A program made the position numbers and the translations under genes. A stretch of DNA of 34,214 bases from a virus, in IMG/VR virus record IMGVR_UViG_3300006920_000029, positions 1 to 34,214 of that record; one strand, 5' to 3'. Every line of letters starts with the position of its first letter. Positions within the stretch are counted from its first letter, which is position 1. Below the pieces are notes generated by a model, which was not told the DNA's origin, searched no databases, and saw only the letters and a list, made by a program, of their open reading frames with translations. Of this stretch, positions 19,066 through 34,214 are shown piece by piece.

Positions 19066-19699
19066 ACGATTTATAGATACTAAGATATGGGATAAGGCTT
19101 GGTTTAGAAAACTAACACCAGAAAATAAATTATTATGGGTTTATATATTAACTAAATGCGACCACGCAGGAATTTTAGATGGAGATTGGGAAGCTGCAAG
19201 TTTCTTTTTAGGTAATAGTATATATGAATATGAAGAAATACCTGAAGTAATAAGAAATAAAATGATTCCAATAGATGATGACCAATTTTTTATTCCATCA
19301 TTTATTGAATATCAATATGGTACTTTAAGAATTAATTCTAAACCACATTTATCTGTAATTAAAAGATTAGAGGAAAAAGGATTAAATAACTATTTACAAA
19401 GGGTTATGGTAACTCTTAAAGATAAAGATAAAGATAAGGATATAGATAAAAGACAAGATAAGTTTATAGATAAAGTAAATGCAGTAATAAAAGAGAAAAA
19501 ATATAGCAATGATGAAACTAATAATTTTGTAGGATTTTGGACAGAGCGTAATAACTCTAATACTAAGATGCGATTTGAATTACAACAGACATTTGATATT
19601 GCTAGAAGATTGGCAACATGGGTAAGAAATAATAAAGAGTGGAAAATAAACAAGAAGGAAAATAATGAGCGAGAAGAAATGCAGTTCACAGGAAGCTAG
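19058..19699 (+). CDS. Replication initiator (phage replisome-organiser-like)
   Basis: A 213-residue protein. The start at ATG 19058 is chosen over an in-frame ATG at 19037 because GGAG sits before it and the protein then begins MAKRFIDTKIWDKAWFRKL, the usual opening of phage replisome-organiser N-terminal domains. WFRKLTPENKLLWVYILTKC and HAGILDGDW are typical of this winged-helix family. The middle has a Lys/Asp linker (KDKDKDKDIDK) encoded by GATAAA-type DNA repeats, and the C-terminus is basic. As with lambda O, the protein probably binds the repeats within its own gene and recruits host replication proteins. No polymerase or helicase is encoded nearby, so host enzymes are needed. Confidence 0.78.
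   Translation: MAKRFIDTKIWDKAWFRKLTPENKLLWVYILTKCDHAGILDGDWEAASFFLGNSIYEYEEIPEVIRNKMIPIDDDQFFIPSFIEYQYGTLRINSKPHLSVIKRLEEKGLNNYLQRVMVTLKDKDKDKDIDKRQDKFIDKVNAVIKEKKYSNDETNNFVGFWTERNNSNTKMRFELQQTFDIARRLATWVRNNKEWKINKKENNEREEMQFTGS
19421..19474 (+). repeat. GATAAA-type iteron array, candidate replication origin
   Basis: Nine consecutive in-register six-base units from 19421: GATAAA, GATAAA, GATAAG, GATATA, GATAAA, AGACAA, GATAAG, TTTATA, GATAAA. Seven of nine fit GATA[AT][AG]. They lie inside the initiator gene, as the lambda iterons lie in O. The surrounding DNA is AT-rich and would melt easily. The repeats may only reflect a low-complexity protein linker. Confidence 0.55.
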
Positions 19700-20063
19700 T
19701 TTTTTTGTTAATGACTTATTTGATACATTAGACATTAAAGGAAACAACCAACTATTATTTAATCAATTTTGTAGCTTATTAATGAAGTTTGATAAGGAGA
19801 CAATTAAAAAGGCTTGGAAAGATATTGTTTATAGTTGTGAACCGCCTAATGGACAAATGGCGGGTAGACTTCCTAAGATGTTTGTTATAGAGAAAATATT
19901 GATGAGTAATAGGATTGAAAAATGGAATGTAGAACATCAAGTAAATAAAAAGAAAGAAATAGAAGCGGGAACAATATCTAAATTATTTAATTGGGGTATT
20001 GAATACCACGAAGGGAAAATAACTAAACAAGAACTAGAAAAAAGGATAGATGAAAACTTATGA
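19665..20063 (+). CDS. Hypothetical replication accessory protein
   Basis: A 132-residue, mostly helical protein that starts 35 bases before the initiator stop with an AAGGAAAATA site. Its pattern (FFVNDLFDTLDI, then FNQFCSLLMKFDKETIKKAW) and position just after the initiator are where phages keep a helicase loader or primosome partner, but it lacks an ATP-binding motif, so it would be a lambda-P-like protein at most. Its stop overlaps the next start as ATGA. Confidence 0.55.
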   Translation: MSEKKCSSQEASFFVNDLFDTLDIKGNNQLLFNQFCSLLMKFDKETIKKAWKDIVYSCEPPNGQMAGRLPKMFVIEKILMSNRIEKWNVEHQVNKKKEIEAGTISKLFNWGIEYHEGKITKQELEKRIDENL

Positions 20064-20323
20064 GTAAAAACCAAGAATCACTATTTGGAGATTTAGACAA
20101 ATATTCATGGTGGGATGAACATTGGCAAGATATGCCAGAATATAAAATGCTAGATGAAAAACCATTTCATACAATAAAAGTTCATTTTGTAACTAAACAA
20201 GATTTAAAAAGTTTTAAAGAACTAATTAATCAGACAGTTACAAGCCAAACTAAATCTATCTGGTTTCCTAAAAAAAATGAATTACCGCCAAGATATTTTT
20301 TATATGTGGATGAAGAAGAATGA
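20060..20323 (+). CDS. Conserved-looking companion of the TAGT glycosyltransferase
   Basis: An 87-residue protein between the replication accessory gene and the glycosyltransferase, linked to both by ATGA overlaps. The pattern W-x2-MPEYKMLDEKPFHTIKVHF, then VTKQDLKSF and QTVTSQTKSIWFPKKN, is one I recall from small proteins next to TAGT-type glycosyltransferases or ParB/PAPS-reductase-like genes in phages and mobile elements. This was not checked by search. It is acidic, with no cysteines or membrane segment. It could be an adaptor that delivers a modification enzyme to DNA; function unknown. Confidence 0.72.
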   Translation: MSKNQESLFGDLDKYSWWDEHWQDMPEYKMLDEKPFHTIKVHFVTKQDLKSFKELINQTVTSQTKSIWFPKKNELPPRYFLYVDEEE

Positions 20324-21168
20324 ATCCTAAATACCCAATTTATGTAATATCAAAAAATAGATGGCAATATGCTAAGACTGATATATTTACAACGACTGCC
20401 TTAGAAAAAATAAATGTTCCATATAAAATTGTCATAGAGCCACAAGAATATAATCATTATAAAAAGTATATTGATTCAAGTAAAATATTGACATTGCCAT
20501 TCTCTAATTTAAACAAGGGGAGTATTCCAGCCAGAAACTGGGTCTGGGAACATTCTATAAAAGAGGGTCATGAAAGACATTGGATTATAGATGATAATAT
20601 TCAAGATTTTTATAGATTAAATAAAAATAAAAGACTTCATGTTGCTAGTGGAACTATATTTAAATGTGCAGAAGATTTTGTGGATAGATATACAAATGTA
20701 CCAATGGCTGGATTTAATTATAATACATTTGCTATTCCTAGAAAAAACCTTGCTCCATTTTATCTTAATACTCGTGTTTATTCATGTATATTATTATCAA
20801 ATAAATTAAAACATAGATGGCGAGGAAGATATAATGAAGATACAGATTTAAGTTTAAGAGTTTTAAAAGATGGGGATTGCACTATTCTATTTAATGCGTT
20901 TTTATGTGATAAAGTAAATACGATGATAATGACAGGTGGTAATACAGATAAGTTGTATAAAGATGATGGCAGAAAAAAAATGGCAGAGTCATTAGTTGAG
21001 CAACATCCAGATGTTGTTAGAATGGCTTGGAAATGGGATAGATGGACTCACTTTGTAGATTATAAGCAGTTCAAACTTAATAACAAGCTAATTAAAAAAG
21101 ATGGGATTAGTATTAAAAAAGGTATTAATAATTATGGCATGAAATTAATTCAACTGGAGAATGTATGA
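20320..21168 (+). CDS. TET-associated-type glycosyltransferase (TAGT)
   Basis: A 282-residue glycosyltransferase with the distinctive motif series of the TAGT (GREB1-related) family: PIYVISKNRW at the start, VPYKIVIEPQEY (33-44), LPFSNLNKGSIPARNWVWEH (59-78), the metal/nucleotide-sugar motif WIIDDN (88-93), GFNYNTF, LNTRVYSCILL (149-159) and RYNEDTDLSLR (170-180), whose acidic residues are probably catalytic. The family was described by comparative genomics as acting with TET/JBP base oxygenases to glycosylate modified bases. No such oxygenase or hydroxymethylase is visible here, so acceptor and donor are open. It is coupled by ATGA to a small companion upstream and a sugar epimerase downstream. 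Confidence 0.85.
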   Translation: MNPKYPIYVISKNRWQYAKTDIFTTTALEKINVPYKIVIEPQEYNHYKKYIDSSKILTLPFSNLNKGSIPARNWVWEHSIKEGHERHWIIDDNIQDFYRLNKNKRLHVASGTIFKCAEDFVDRYTNVPMAGFNYNTFAIPRKNLAPFYLNTRVYSCILLSNKLKHRWRGRYNEDTDLSLRVLKDGDCTILFNAFLCDKVNTMIMTGGNTDKLYKDDGRKKMAESLVEQHPDVVRMAWKWDRWTHFVDYKQFKLNNKLIKKDGISIKKGINNYGMKLIQLENV

Positions 21169-22022
21169 TTTTAGTAACTGGAGGAGCAGGGTTTATTGGA
21201 ACTAATTTAATTGATAGATTAATAAAAGAGAAAGAAGATGTAATATCATTTGATAAAAAAAAATTTAAAAATAAAAATATAACTATTTTTAAAGGAGATT
21301 TATCTAAGTCTAAAGATTTAAAAATCTTTATTGAATACATTGGAAGAGTAAAATTAATAATTCATTTAGGTGCAATAGCAAGAGTTCATACATCAATAAA
21401 AGAACCTAAAAAAGTATTAATAAATAATTTAGTTAGTACGATTAATGTTCTTGATTATGCGAATGAGTTTAATATTCCAATTATTTATGCGGGGTCTAGT
21501 TCAAAATTTGCTGGTGCGAATAAAAGTCCTTATGCTTTTTCAAAATATAAAGGCGAAGAGCTATGCAAATTATATAATCAATTATATGGTTTGAGGGTTT
21601 ATGTTTGCAGATTTTATAATGTTTATGGAAATCATCAAATTGAAAAAGGTAAATATTCAACTGTAATCGGAGTATTTGAAAAGCAATTTAGAGAAAATAA
21701 ACCATTGACGATTGTAGGCGATGGAACACAAAAAAGAGATTTTACTCATATTGATGATATTGTAGCTGGGATTATAAAAGCAAAAAACATGATTATGGAT
21801 TCAAAATATTCATATTTAGAATTTGATTTTGGAACTGCAATTAGTTATTCTATAAATCAAGTTGCTAATATGTTTGGTAAGGATTATCCAAAAAAATATA
21901 TAAAAAGTAGAGATGGAGAATATAATTTTTCATTGGCTGACAATGCTTATACAAAGAACACTTTGAACTGGAAACCGAGTAGAAAACTATCAAATTACAT
22001 AAAAAATATAGTAAACCCTTAA
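21165..22022 (+). CDS. NAD-dependent sugar epimerase/dehydratase (extended SDR)
   Basis: A 285-residue enzyme of the extended SDR family. The NAD-binding motif GGAGFIG is at residues 6-12, a Ser-rich active-site region (GSSSKF) is followed by Tyr123-x3-Lys127 (the YAFSK pair), and there is RFYNVYG downstream. Such enzymes (GalE, UDP-xylose/arabinose epimerase, dTDP-glucose dehydratase types) interconvert nucleotide sugars. Coupled to the TAGT gene by ATGA, it most likely makes or adjusts the donor sugar. The subfamily cannot be read from motifs alone, although length and GSSSKF suit epimerases. A promoter follows within 30 bases of its stop. Confidence 0.85.
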   Translation: MILVTGGAGFIGTNLIDRLIKEKEDVISFDKKKFKNKNITIFKGDLSKSKDLKIFIEYIGRVKLIIHLGAIARVHTSIKEPKKVLINNLVSTINVLDYANEFNIPIIYAGSSSKFAGANKSPYAFSKYKGEELCKLYNQLYGLRVYVCRFYNVYGNHQIEKGKYSTVIGVFEKQFRENKPLTIVGDGTQKRDFTHIDDIVAGIIKAKNMIMDSKYSYLEFDFGTAISYSINQVANMFGKDYPKKYIKSRDGEYNFSLADNAYTKNTLNWKPSRKLSNYIKNIVNP

Positions 22023-22050
22023 ATAACCCTTAAAATAAATAAAAAAAGAC

Positions 22051-22079
22051 TTGCCTCGTATTATATAAAGCCCTAGTTT
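22051..22079 (+). promoter_or_regulatory. Promoter P2 before the amidoligase operon
   Basis: TTGCCT (22051-22056), a 17-base spacer and TAGTTT (22074-22079), weaker than P1 but with the same spacing and an almost identical leader. The leader begins with TGTGATTATC (22085-22094), a close relative of the box at P1. The amidoligase module is thus likely co-regulated with the early operon. Confidence 0.7.
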
Positions 22080-22084
22080 GTTAC

Positions 22085-22123
22085 TGTGATTATCAAGAAA
22101 AACGACAAGGAGTCAAAAGTGAA
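22085..22123 (+). repeat. Shared leader, copy 2 (promoter P2)
   Basis: The second copy of the leader at 15343-15381. The 19 bases at 22105-22123 match 15363-15381 except for one C/T difference. The first ten bases are the exact reverse complement of GATAATCACA at 15250-15259 and 17032-17041. Recent duplication or shared selection as a regulatory unit would explain it. Confidence 0.75.
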
Positions 22124-23120
22124 TAAAGGTAAATTTAATAATAATAGAGGTTTTGGAGTTGAAATCGAGTTTATCAGACCAAGAGGTGCTTCAAAGCAAG
22201 ATATATGTGATGCTTTAACAGTTACTTGTGAGGTAGAGGGATATAACCATATCACTAGACCACATTGGAAAATTGTTACTGATTGTTCAGTAGATGCAAA
22301 CAGTAGCCAACATGATAGAGGTTTAATTGGAGATAATGAGATTGTTTCTCCAATCCTTTATGGCGAGAATGGTTTTGAGCAGTTAAAGAATATCTTAGAC
22401 ACTCTTAATGAATTAGGATGTGAAGTTAATTATACTTGTGGCATTCATGTTCATCACGATGTAACTAATAAGATGGTTGAAGGTAAAGAGCAGAGTCAAA
22501 AATTCTTAGCTAATCTTGTAAAATTTGTTGCTAAGTATGAGCATCTAATTTATAAGTTAGTTTCTCCATCAAGATTAGATGGCAGAAATTATAGCACACC
22601 AGTTAGACAAGATTTTTTTGGATATGGTTCTACATTAAGTAAGAATGATGTTAATAGAATGGTTGCTAGAGTTAAGCGTAATTGTGAGAATAAATATCGT
22701 TATAGTAGTGATATTAACAATAACCAACCATCTCCAAGTGTTCAATATAATAGAGCTTGTGGTCTTAACTTTCGTAATGTTTGGACAAGAGGGTCTGTTG
22801 AATTTAGATACCATAATGGCTCTTTAAACTTTGATAAGATTGTTTCATGGATTGTCTTTACTCAAGCGATTGTTAATTCTGTTGAGGATGCAAGTAGTGT
22901 TAAAATGAGTTATGTTCCAAATAATGTTGATGGTCTTTTTTACTTAAGGAAGGCGATTGGTTTTGTTGGTAATACTAATAGAGATGATGTTACTGAACTA
23001 GCTACTAATTATATTGTTAAAAGATATAAAGAGCTAAGTGCTAGAGAAGATGATTACCTAAGAAATAGACAATATAGTTATGTTCAAGATGGACTAACTA
23101 CAAACCAAATAGGAGCGTAA
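22119..23120 (+). CDS. Amidoligase (Amidoligase_2, glutamine-synthetase-like fold)
   Basis: A 333-residue ATP-dependent COOH-NH2 ligase. Motifs in order: GFGVEIEF (11-18) for the metal-binding Glu residues, TDCSVD (54-59), EIVSP (74-78), GIHVHHD (108-114), and RGSVEFRYHNGS (224-235), which are hallmarks of Amidoligase_2. These enzymes form amide or peptide bonds; family members are predicted to modify peptides, proteins or cell-wall parts. The GTG start at 22119 follows AAGGAG and matches the duplicated leader; an in-frame start at 22086 lies in the promoter leader. It is followed after one base by a glutamine amidotransferase and then a gamma-glutamyl-cyclotransferase-like gene, a neighbourhood predicted earlier for this family. 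Substrate unknown. Confidence 0.88.
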   Translation: MNKGKFNNNRGFGVEIEFIRPRGASKQDICDALTVTCEVEGYNHITRPHWKIVTDCSVDANSSQHDRGLIGDNEIVSPILYGENGFEQLKNILDTLNELGCEVNYTCGIHVHHDVTNKMVEGKEQSQKFLANLVKFVAKYEHLIYKLVSPSRLDGRNYSTPVRQDFFGYGSTLSKNDVNRMVARVKRNCENKYRYSSDINNNQPSPSVQYNRACGLNFRNVWTRGSVEFRYHNGSLNFDKIVSWIVFTQAIVNSVEDASSVKMSYVPNNVDGLFYLRKAIGFVGNTNRDDVTELATNYIVKRYKELSAREDDYLRNRQYSYVQDGLTTNQIGA

Positions 23121-23121
23121 T

Positions 23122-24012
23122 ATGTGTGGTTTAGCGGGAGTTATTTTAAAACAAAAAGATAGAGACAACGAGACCCTTAATCGGGTCTCAAGGTCTTTTT
23201 CAAAAATGCTTACAGAGGCAGATATAAGAGGCGGTCATGCCACAGGATTTGCTCTAATAGATAAGTATGGAGATTATGTAATATGTAAAAAGCCAAAAGA
23301 TGCTTATGACTTTTTTAATGACAACGAGGTTCAAGATAATATTGGTTTGGTTTATGATGGCATCACTACAATGATGGGTCATACTAGATATGCGACATTA
23401 GGTTCTCCATCAATCAATAGTAACAACCATCCAATTAGGACAGGTCAAACGATAGGAACTCATAATGGTTCTATATCTAATCACAAAGAGCTATTTCATA
23501 AGTATAATATGAAACGATATGCTCAAGTAGATAGTGAGGCGATATTTAGATTGTATGAGACTTCTAATGATGTTGATGAGTTCTTAGATGATAGGTTGCC
23601 AAAAGTTCAAGGTCGTGTTGCGATTGTTTGGGCGGACTTAGAGCGACCAGATTATGTCTATATGGTAAAAGCTAATAATCCTATTCAAATGGTCTATATT
23701 CCAGAGTTTGATTGTTATGTATATGGTAGCACCGATTCAATCATAAATGCGGGTTTATGGCACTATTATGAGCGTATTACAATAGAACCTAACACGATGG
23801 TTAGAATTGATACTAGGACTCTTAAGATTGATACAAAAGATATTAAGATAAAAGAACCAAAGCCAAAACGCTTTTCATTTTACGATGATAAGATTGGAGC
23901 ATATAAAGACGAACCTCAAACAGTTGATAGATTCGTTCCGAGGTTTTCGTATAGTGACCAATTAAAAATGTTTAAAGCTAGTGATGGCTCAAAGATAAGG
24001 AAGGTAAAATAA
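23122..24012 (+). CDS. Class II glutamine amidotransferase
   Basis: A 296-residue Ntn-type glutaminase. Cys2 directly after the start Met is the catalytic nucleophile once Met is removed. GHTRYATLG (86-94, Arg for glutamine), the oxyanion-hole motif THNGSISNH (113-121) and VDSEAIF (136-142) match the GlmS/PurF glutaminase domain. Unlike those enzymes, it has no fused synthase domain, so it must hand ammonia to a partner or act as a hydrolase or acyl-transferase; the adjacent amidoligase is the obvious partner. The ribosome site is AGGAG. Stop overlaps the next start as TAATG. Some phage amidotransferases of this class serve 7-deazaguanine DNA modification, but no DpdA- or QueC-like gene is seen. 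Confidence 0.88.
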   Translation: MCGLAGVILKQKDRDNETLNRVSRSFSKMLTEADIRGGHATGFALIDKYGDYVICKKPKDAYDFFNDNEVQDNIGLVYDGITTMMGHTRYATLGSPSINSNNHPIRTGQTIGTHNGSISNHKELFHKYNMKRYAQVDSEAIFRLYETSNDVDEFLDDRLPKVQGRVAIVWADLERPDYVYMVKANNPIQMVYIPEFDCYVYGSTDSIINAGLWHYYERITIEPNTMVRIDTRTLKIDTKDIKIKEPKPKRFSFYDDKIGAYKDEPQTVDRFVPRFSYSDQLKMFKASDGSKIRKVK

Positions 24013-24632
24013 TGGATGATAAATTTATGAGTATAGAAGTATTTGTATATGGTACATTAAAAAAAGGTGGTGGCAATCATCACTTCTTAAAAGATAGTGA
24101 TTTCGTTAGACACGAGATTTTAAAAGACCATGCAATTTATGTACCAAGAGGTATGAGATTTCCAATAATGCTTAAAAGTAAAGGCGATAAAGTATATGGA
24201 GAAGTCTATCGTATAAGTAGCACAACATTAGCTAAATTAGATATGCTTGAAAGCGAGGGTCATTTATACAATCGTGTTAATGATATTGAATTAGGTTTTC
24301 AATATTATTTATATAACGAAAGTGACGCTTGGGAAATAAACAAAAGCAAAGATAAAATAGATAGTGGATATTGGAAAACCATGTTTGAAGTTGATTTAAA
24401 CTTAATAATAGATAATCGTAACTATACAGATAAGGCAGATAAGTTAGTATTTCACATGAGGTTTTTTGATGGGAAACGAGCGCCAACAAATAAAATCTAT
24501 ATGGACTTAGTAAAGAGAAGAAGTTATTTAGATTTAAACACCGAAAATGAAGAGATATTTTTAAGGGATTGTATAATTGAGGGAGTTGTAAGTGAGTTTA
24601 GAGAGCCAATACATAAGTTCTATAATATGTAA
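24012..24632 (+). CDS. Gamma-glutamyl-cyclotransferase-like (GGCT/AIG2) protein
   Basis: A 206-residue protein with the family signature VYGTLKKGGGNHHFL (12-26) and LDMLE (76-80), where the Glu is the usual catalytic acid/base, followed by the typical Y-N-R. The N-terminal ~90 residues are the GGCT core. The rest is longer than simple members and may form a second domain. Known members cyclise gamma-glutamyl amides to 5-oxoproline and release an amine or peptide; beside an amidoligase and a glutaminase it could trim or regenerate a gamma-glutamyl tag. Starts overlapping the previous stop; an in-frame ATG at 24027 is an alternative. Confidence 0.85.
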   Translation: MDDKFMSIEVFVYGTLKKGGGNHHFLKDSDFVRHEILKDHAIYVPRGMRFPIMLKSKGDKVYGEVYRISSTTLAKLDMLESEGHLYNRVNDIELGFQYYLYNESDAWEINKSKDKIDSGYWKTMFEVDLNLIIDNRNYTDKADKLVFHMRFFDGKRAPTNKIYMDLVKRRSYLDLNTENEEIFLRDCIIEGVVSEFREPIHKFYNM

Positions 24633-24738
24633 TATATGCGAAAAGAATGTAACGATTGTAAATAGGCAGGATAAAGGAAACAAATCAAGATGGGTTTGCG
24701 AAAAATGTAGCGAAAAATATCCAAGATGGAACAATTAG
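24592..24738 (+). CDS. Zinc-ribbon miniprotein overlapping the GGCT gene
   Basis: A 48-residue frame beginning at GTG with GGGAG at a suitable distance, 41 bases inside the end of the GGCT gene. CNIC and CEKC pairs 21 residues apart make a zinc ribbon likely, and the end (KYPRWNN) is basic and aromatic. Cysteine spacing is the main support. Confidence 0.6.
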   Translation: MSLESQYISSIICNICEKNVTIVNRQDKGNKSRWVCEKCSEKYPRWNN

Positions 24739-32271: not shown

Positions 32272-34214
32272 AAAGCATGATAAGTAATATTAGTGCAGGA
32301 TTAGCGAGTGGTGGAACAGTAGATGGCGACCTAACAATAACTGGCGATTTTAAAGTTGAGGGTGCTGGTAGTTTTGCTTATGATGAGATAATTGAAGGCT
32401 CTATTGGTTTAGATACTTCATCTCCAGCTATAACTATGAGAAATGGTAGCACATTCTATAATGAGTTCAAAGTAACTAGCGGTAATACTATTTTAAAAAC
32501 AAGCGGTGGTAGCCAAGATTTAATATTTGGTACTGCTGATGTTGAAAAAATGCGAATTACTTCAGCAGGACTGGTCGGCATCGGCACAACATCTCCAGCA
32601 ACTACATTACATACAATAGGTTCAACTGGTTTAAGAGTTGAAGGTACTAGTGGAAATCATGGCGTTGTAGAAATAAAAGCTGGAGATGGTACTGCTTGGT
32701 CAATAGTTACAAGCGTAGCTAATGATAATTTAGATTTTTATAATTCAACTTCTGGTACTGCTATGTCCATTAAGCATAGTAATGGTCATGTCGGCATCGG
32801 CACAAACTCGCCTAGTTATAAATTAGACATTGTTCAAAGTGGAGATTACCAATTTAGAGTAGGTTCGTCAGCTAATAAATATGTATCTATTGAAGATGAT
32901 GTAATGCGATTTAAGGGAATGACTGGCAATGGAATGAGAATTTTGACGATAGATTCCAGCGATATAAACTTTGGCACAAATACCACTCTTAATAGATTGG
33001 TTATTAAAGCAGATGGAAAAATTGGCATAGGCACAGCCTCGCCTAATGGTAAAGTAGCAATTCATTCAGCTTCTGCTGGTGGTTCAAGTGCAATATATAA
33101 TAGGGCAGATGAGTTAGTAATTGAAAATAGTGACCATGCTGGAATTACTATAAAATCACCAACCGATAAAGAGACAAGTGTATTTTTTGGAGATGCAGAT
33201 GATAGTTCAAGGGGTGGCATAAGATATAATCACGATGGCGACACAATGACTTTTCAAGTTGCTAGTGCTAAATTGATTCTCGATTTAAACTCTCGCATTA
33301 GTCTTAGTAATAATGATAGTGGTTCTTCAAATACAATATTTGGAAAAAGTGCAGGAGCAAATTTAGATGCTGGTAGTAATTATAATACCTTTATAGGAGA
33401 AGGTGTTTCAGATGCCTCTATGGATGATGCGCAATGGAATACAGGAGTTGGTAATTATGCTTTAAGTGCATTAACTACTGGAGATGCAAATACAGCTGTA
33501 GGCAATAATGCTTTAAATGATGTTACAACTGGTAGCTCAAATGTTGCAGTTGGCTCAGGTGCCTCTGATGCTTTGACTACTGGAAGCAATAATGTGGCAA
33601 TCGGTTTAAATGCTTTAGGAGCTGAGACTGACGCAGGAACTACAGTTGCAGTAGGTAGAGACTCTGCAAGAATGCAAAATGCAAGTGGTTCTACTTATAG
33701 TACTTTTGTAGGAGATAGTGCAGGGTATCATAATGTAATTGGTAAAAACAATACTTATTTAGGTGCTTTGGCTGGAGCTGGTGTGTCAGGTCAAAGCAAT
33801 GATGGCAATGTTGGGGTAGGTGGTTTTTCTTTGAATGCAATAACTACTGGTAATGAAAATACAGCAGTAGGAAAACATTCACTTGATACACTTACAACAG
33901 GTAGCCACAATGTAGTTTTAGGCTCAAATGCTGGGTACACTTTGACTACTACTGCAGAAACTGTTCTTGTTGGTTATAAAGCAGGTTACGGAATAAATAG
34001 TGCAGATGCAAATGGTACAACTGCTGTAGGGCATAATGCTCTTCTTGCTCTTACAGATGGTCAATACAATACAGCTGTGGGATACCAAGCTGGAAAAACT
34101 ATGACAACTGCAACTAACAATAGTTTTTTTGGATATCAATCAGGGCATCTTGCTACTGGTAGTGGAAACGCAGGGTTTGGTGGTTCTGCACTTTATGTTT
34201 TAGCAGGTGGTACA
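32265..34214 (+). CDS. Giant tail fibre, N-terminal part (continues at 1-2166)
   Basis: The first 650 codons of the ~1330-residue fibre, counting the 41 duplicated in the terminal repeat; the frame runs off the window end and continues at base 1. The N-terminus (MLKSMISNISAGLASGGTVDG) probably attaches to the tail. Three motifs of the V-G-I-G-T-x-S-P type appear at residues about 104, 176 and 253, a known spacer in long phage fibres. From about residue 356 the N-T-A-V-G repeats begin. The ATG at 32265 overlaps the previous gene's stop by 7 bases. See the C-terminal entry for the chaperone domain. Confidence 0.9.
   Translation, partial: MLKSMISNISAGLASGGTVDGDLTITGDFKVEGAGSFAYDEIIEGSIGLDTSSPAITMRNGSTFYNEFKVTSGNTILKTSGGSQDLIFGTADVEKMRITSAGLVGIGTTSPATTLHTIGSTGLRVEGTSGNHGVVEIKAGDGTAWSIVTSVANDNLDFYNSTSGTAMSIKHSNGHVGIGTNSPSYKLDIVQSGDYQFRVGSSANKYVSIEDDVMRFKGMTGNGMRILTIDSSDINFGTNTTLNRLVIKADGKIGIGTASPNGKVAIHSASAGGSSAIYNRADELVIENSDHAGITIKSPTDKETSVFFGDADDSSRGGIRYNHDGDTMTFQVASAKLILDLNSRISLSNNDSGSSNTIFGKSAGANLDAGSNYNTFIGEGVSDASMDDAQWNTGVGNYALSALTTGDANTAVGNNALNDVTTGSSNVAVGSGASDALTTGSNNVAIGLNALGAETDAGTTVAVGRDSARMQNASGSTYSTFVGDSAGYHNVIGKNNTYLGALAGAGVSGQSNDGNVGVGGFSLNAITTGNENTAVGKHSLDTLTTGSHNVVLGSNAGYTLTTTAETVLVGYKAGYGINSADANGTTAVGHNALLALTDGQYNTAVGYQAGKTMTTATNNSFFGYQSGHLATGSGNAGFGGSALYVLAGGT
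34092..34214. repeat. Terminal direct repeat, right copy
   Basis: Identical to 1-123 and in the same reading frame of the tail fibre. It marks the overlap at which the circular genome was cut. Confidence 0.95.

Follow-up and report, generated by a model that had tools for sequence, protein, structure and literature searches.

The locus considered here raises the question of which bond is made, and on what target, by three adjacent viral genes that encode an amidoligase, a class II glutaminase and a cyclotransferase. The genes lie in IMG/VR record IMGVR_UViG_3300006920_000029, of which the whole 34,214-nucleotide stretch analysed is referred to as the window (Table 1). It is rather likely that the trio is a gamma-glutamyl (iso)peptide module, consisting of a ligase, a matching remover and an accessory glutaminase, and that it is a reduced relative of the cassette found in phiEco32-, LUZ24- and RIO-1-like phages. 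Phages of Pseudomonas, Arthrobacter, Bacillus and gut bacteria carry amidoligase sets, and a three-gene version in a probably closed 34-kb genome is small enough to be expressed whole and assayed.

Table 1. Features of the trio and its upstream neighbourhood (positions in the window)
Feature	Position	Strand	Basis or remark
Variable slot upstream of the trio	20320-22022	+	Adjacent, not part of the trio
TAGT-family (TET-associated) glycosyltransferase	20320-21168	+	PF20691, E 1e-43
Nucleotide-sugar epimerase	21165-22022	+	PF01370, E 9e-45
Conserved non-coding block upstream of the trio	22014-22095	+	Alignment of 8 relatives
Amidoligase (Amidoligase_2, GS/GCS fold)	22119-23120	+	333 aa from GTG 22119; PF12224
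Class II (N-terminal nucleophile) glutamine amidotransferase, glutaminase domain without synthase domain	23122-24012	+	296 aa; PF13522
7-bp hairpin followed by a T-rich stretch (terminator-like)	23170-23189	+	Inside the start of the glutaminase reading frame; scan
Gamma-glutamylamine cyclotransferase-type enzyme (YGTL motif)	24012-24632	+	206 aa; PF06094

Arrangement, conservation and known relatives of the trio

All three genes are matched well above the Pfam cut-offs: Amidoligase_2 at 106 bits against a cut-off of 22 (E 3e-30, with the frame begun at 22086 or 22119), GATase_6 at 57 bits against 27 (E 3e-15) and GGACT at 77 bits against 22.8 (E 2e-21). The PHROGs assignments are the same. Together with the folds described below, these matches confirm the three enzymes named in an earlier sequence-only reading (Amidoligase_2, an Ntn glutaminase and a cyclotransferase), and the motifs quoted there are all present. 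The genes are closely packed on the plus strand, with the amidoligase TAA at 23118-23120 separated by 1 base from the glutaminase ATG at 23122, and with base 24012 shared between the glutaminase stop and the cyclotransferase start. For the amidoligase, GTG 22119 seems the better choice of start, since it is preceded by AAGGAG at 22107-22112 and its place is taken by ATG in relatives, whereas the alternative GTG at 22086 has no ribosome site. A small ORF with a zinc-ribbon-like CxxC pattern (24592-24738) overlaps the end of the cyclotransferase gene; it is kept in relatives and has sub-threshold Pfam matches only.

The trio is kept together in ten IMG/VR relatives, up to the reach of each contig (in L005 it is seen as far as the contig end), and is followed in them by much the same small genes and then the terminase. 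Against five relatives, dN/dS of the trio genes is 0.07-0.37, with the glutaminase at about 0.1, which indicates purifying selection. Because synteny is preserved in ten relatives and dN/dS is this low, the arrangement is not due to chance. The reading frames and catalytic residues of all three genes are intact. The functional linkage proposed from the sequence is supported both by this co-conservation and by the recurrence of the same partners at viral loci (see below).

Bases 1-123 of the window are identical to bases 34092-34214, forming an exact 123-bp direct terminal repeat, and two relatives of 33.8 and 34.2 kb have largely the same gene content, circularly permuted. It is therefore probable that the window represents a single closed phage genome, about 34.09 kb long, which lends weight to statements about what it lacks. 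Its other genes include capsid, tail and S74-type fibre proteins, a RusA resolvase, an HNH nuclease and a terminase with about 38-41% identity to the cultured phages listed first among its matches. The trio is flanked by a DNA-modification slot and the terminase, and is not beside lysis genes.

The trio is not a new gene set but a compact copy of a known one. In the excerpts available of PMC5498523 and PMC11945000, the larger set of LUZ24-, phiEco32- and RIO-1-like phages is called a peptidoglycan modification cassette or module; it includes a second ligase and an ATP-grasp enzyme, and its gene number varies between phages (PMC11945000). Such sets are thus better known than the sequence-only reading implied. 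Its statement that they had been predicted earlier, with no substrate determined, is borne out: citing papers such as PMC5498523 trace the prediction to Iyer et al. 2009 and Hardies et al. 2013, and the excerpts searched on these sets report no substrate or activity for any phage member.

Like the trio, the cassette of LUZ24/PaP3/PaP4, phiEco32 and RIO-1/PSA-HP1 contains an amidoligase, an amidotransferase and a YGTL cyclotransferase, on one strand in PaP4. Unlike the trio, PaP4 also encodes a COOH-NH2 ligase and an annotated RimK-like ligase; its amidotransferase has 510 aa as against 296, and its amidoligase is only 18% identical to that of the trio. The Arthrobacter phages Salgado (Laroyevirus) and Ottawa have the same three genes and, like the trio, no COOH-NH2 ligase, but in the order GGCT, amidoligase, GAT; identity is about 31-32% for the ligase, 25% for the glutaminase and 21-23% for the cyclotransferase. 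The amidoligase and the AIG2-like cyclotransferase of that phage cluster are mentioned in PMC5513430. By description rather than by sequence, a further likeness is seen in the OM43-clade phages MEP401 and MEP402, small marine phages with an amidoligase (PF12224) and a GATase (PF13522) according to an excerpt of PMC10580990, in which no cyclotransferase is named.

The COOH-NH2 ligase profile (PF14395) finds its target in the PaP4 control and nothing in the window; because the window is also probably closed, the trio is not the full cassette and is at most a reduced relative of it. The two ATP-grasp profiles, PF08443 and PF13535, have no match in the window and miss the PaP4 control as well, and the PaP4 protein itself, used as a query, matches PaP4 only. 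The earlier remark that there is no standalone synthase domain besides the amidoligase to use the ammonia is supported for the apparently closed genome, where no other ligase is recognised, with the ATP-grasp part of the test being weak. If the larger cassette makes three linkages, the trio cannot do the same, since there is no recognised second ligase.

Folds, catalytic residues and a proposed mechanism

The AlphaFold2 model of the amidoligase (pLDDT 92, from a 69-sequence alignment) has as its nearest PDB folds 1tt4 (Z 13.5) and YbdK (Z 12.9 over 240 residues). Glutamine synthetases follow at Z about 12 over 226-230 residues, and other near folds include plant glutamate-cysteine ligase and the depupylase Dop (Z about 12; 5lrt, Z 11.8). 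In the numbering of the 344-aa frame, the residues invariant among the 69 sequences are G24, E26, E28, W61, D66, E85, V87, S88, P89, G119, H121, H123, S162, R163, N228, E239, K251 and W255, while R241 is present in at least 90% of them. E26-x-E28, E85, H121, H123 and E239-x-R241 are the predicted metal-ATP residues of the GS/GCS type, matched to GS by motif and strand order rather than by superposed coordinates; the metal and ATP residues on which the sequence-only reading depended are thus kept. Searches by sequence found no solved relatives, and identity to solved enzymes of the same fold is only 9-14%, so that the substrate is not readable from the fold.

The glutaminase matches the glutaminase half of GlmS (1xff, E 4e-6 by phmmer, with residues 83-189 aligned to GlmS) and lacks the synthase half. 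C2, R89, T92, N115, G116 and D137 are invariant in 9 sequences, in agreement with the Cys2 nucleophile proposed earlier, and the N-terminal Cys, Arg89, Asn115-Gly116 and Asp137 make up a putative class II (Ntn) glutamine site. The hairpin at the start of this gene is a separate matter. Its stem is kept by paired changes in kin (in L004, GAGACAC/GTGTCTC, which is synonymous), with a covariation of 0.341 compared with 0.173 for shuffles and no more than 0.15 when the position is slid, and it is broken in more distant relatives. The hairpin is possibly an attenuator or an RNA-processing site. A search of Rfam found nothing.

The cyclotransferase model (AlphaFold2, pLDDT 92) is best matched in the PDB by mouse and human GGACT (1vkb, Z 14.6; 3jub, Z 14.5; 25% identity). 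Y13 and G14 are invariant and E80 is found in at least 90% of 50 sequences, and this combination of a YGTL motif and a catalytic Glu in a GGCT fold is that of the GGACT type. The human enzyme shares the fold (Z 14.5, with an rmsd of 2.2 across 115 residues) and what we take to be the same YGTL motif, with a glutamate in the catalytic place. The phage protein differs in having about 75 extra residues at its C-terminus, a part that the PDB comparison barely probed. This extension (24400-24632) is highly conserved among kin.

From these domains, residues and folds we infer a glutamyl substrate and a direction for each step. The amidoligase would use Mg-ATP to activate a carboxylate, most likely the gamma-carboxyl of glutamate, and would join it to an amine; the cyclotransferase would take the gamma-glutamyl group off again as 5-oxoproline. 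The bond may be protecting, edited or reversible, because a cyclotransferase can remove a gamma-glutamyl group in this way. The class II glutaminase would have an accessory part, either providing ammonia (and glutamate) from glutamine or trimming gamma-amides of the product.

Partners of viral amidoligases

The ligase was the starting point for a survey of 71 distinct viral amidoligase loci, and its constancy is therefore by design. Of the 63 loci scorable for a cyclotransferase, 52 have one within 5 kb; the corresponding count for a glutaminase is 30 of 52. Loci with a cyclotransferase only are more numerous than those with a cyclotransferase and a glutaminase (33 versus 19). This does not support the earlier proposal that ammonia from the glutaminase feeds the amidoligase as the logic of the module: as the wider family can do without the glutaminase, the supply of ammonia is probably not its central principle, and the amidoligase would generally use some other amine, given that most viral ligase-cyclotransferase pairs have no glutaminase.

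The glutaminase is instead an add-on tied to one type of cyclotransferase. Where it is present, the cyclotransferase is of the YGTL type in 25 of 25 scorable loci, a count that includes a joined protein of phage C75C1; where it is absent, the YGxN type is found in 24 of 27 loci and the YGTL type in the other three, and no locus combines a glutaminase with YGxN. A Fisher test gave p 4e-9 on an earlier count that ignored kinship. On a quick tree of the ligase, in which many forks are unsupported, the states change only about 4-6 times, which leaves too few independent pairs and deprives a tree test of power. The pairing is therefore a consistent observation, not a proven correlation; together with the swapping of the upstream slot described below, it is what this analysis adds to the published descriptions of such sets.

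The YGxN type is the cyclotransferase acting on gamma-glutamyl amino acids, and the YGTL type is the gamma-glutamylamine type. It can be suggested, as a tentative and somewhat doubtful generalization, that there are two kinds of phage amidoligase module that can be told apart by sequence, one with a class II glutaminase and a YGTL cyclotransferase (as here), and one with a YGxN cyclotransferase and no glutaminase. The cyclotransferase type would then report the bond made, and modules of the first kind would attach a reversible gamma-glutamyl amide to a wall peptide, a protein or a DNA base. The pairing pattern thus offers a testable prediction of which bond the ligase makes.

Two further observations were made in the survey. 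The joined protein of phage C75C1 (L016, 7624-8520) has an N-terminal class II amidotransferase-like part (MCLIIHK...), scoring just under the GATase_4 cut-off, and a C-terminal GGACT domain. Bacterial Amidoligase_2 homologues (L097-L126, for example from Desulfovibrio, Bacteroidota and cyanobacteria) mostly have no cyclotransferase or glutaminase nearby, with a cyclotransferase found in 1 of 30, which suggests that they have another role or another partner.

Candidate targets and the variable upstream slot

Peptidoglycan is the leading published guess for the target, and protein and DNA are weaker rivals. The trio might amidate stem peptides or add gamma-glutamyl links to them and so block superinfection, which is a possibility worth entertaining although the odds are against it. 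The D-Glu and Dap of stem peptides would be natural carboxylate and amine partners for such an enzyme set. The same interpretation is published for the larger cassette (PMC5498523, PMC11945000), and the superinfection idea for phiEco32 is attributed to Iyer 2009 in PMC10580990 and PMC11318856. In the excerpts of these four papers, however, the peptidoglycan role rests on prediction, repeated from paper to paper, and no experiment was found in the literature searched. In the window, the trio is not linked to genes for lysis or for the cell wall, and cell-wall hydrolases are rare in the neighbour survey (2 Amidase_2 and 2 Hydrolase_2 among 121 neighbour clusters).

Two other explanations are unlikely, to a similar degree. 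In the first, proteins of the host or the phage would be tagged by the ligase with glutamate or a small peptide, and the cyclotransferase would take the tag off. Dop, which shares the fold with Pup ligase, is among the nearest folds of the amidoligase, and GGACT enzymes cleave gamma-glutamyl-lysine, the remnant expected of a protein isopeptide tag after proteolysis. However, GGACT acts on free gamma-glutamylamines after proteolysis and not on intact proteins; glutamine synthetases, which are small-molecule enzymes, score equally near; and neither a tag protein nor a protease can be recognised next to the trio. In the second, the trio is an auxiliary metabolic set of nitrogen or glutathione metabolism that has no modified target and recovers glutamate, ammonia and 5-oxoproline from gamma-glutamyl compounds to support phage replication. 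The products released by the glutaminase and by the cyclotransferase are usable and derive from glutamate, the near folds of the ligase include YbdK and glutamate-cysteine ligase, and an excerpt of PMC5498523 mentions the recycling of host material. This would leave unexplained why, in most of the loci collected through the ligase, that ATP-consuming enzyme is paired with a cyclotransferase whereas a glutaminase may be missing.

The gamma-glutamyl module appears to be a unit of its own and is not tied to any one modification gene, because the slot upstream of it swaps while the trio stays. This slot (20060-22022 in the window) lies between a conserved gene at 19665-20063 and the trio, and has equivalents in L004, L005, L006 and L011. 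It holds the TAGT glycosyltransferase with the epimerase in the window, L003 and L009; a C5-cytosine methylase and another methylase in L004; an N6/N4 methylase in L006, with a near-identical protein in L005; and a dUTPase with a thymidylate-synthase homologue in L011. The TAGT glycosyltransferase is found in the adjacent slot in 9 of 18 searched records. A dependence of the trio on the glycosyltransferase and epimerase was considered and rejected, as L004, L005, L006, L007, L008 and L011 keep the trio without them. The upstream neighbours thus vary in relatives while the trio does not, which agrees with the earlier view of the three genes as a set.

Hypermodification of DNA bases, with the trio attaching an amino acid, an amide or an amine to bases of the phage DNA, is decidedly improbable. 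In its favour, the slot repeatedly carries DNA-modification or nucleotide genes, and in phage Ottawa ParB-like proteins, an oxidoreductase and a kinase are encoded within about 6 kb. Against it, the trio is the same whichever modification gene adjoins it and so depends on none, and the window, probably closed, has no thymidylate-synthase-type hydroxymethylase (PF00303, for which positive controls worked) and no Tet_JBP match (PF12851, a weak absence as no control gave a match). TET-based DNA glycosylation was set aside on these same two negative searches.

A shared promoter for the three genes had also been proposed. A sigma-70 consensus scan lists none just upstream of the trio on the plus strand, and finds 29 promoter-like sites in all compared with 34 expected. 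The part of the proposal that stands is a conserved upstream region: the non-coding block in Table 1 is kept across relatives although the upstream gene slot differs, and it is possible that it is a promoter or regulatory region. Within it is a weak promoter-like match, TTGCCT (22051-22056) and TAGTTT (22074-22079) spaced by 17 nt, of which the equivalent in L004 is TTGACT-17-TATTTT.
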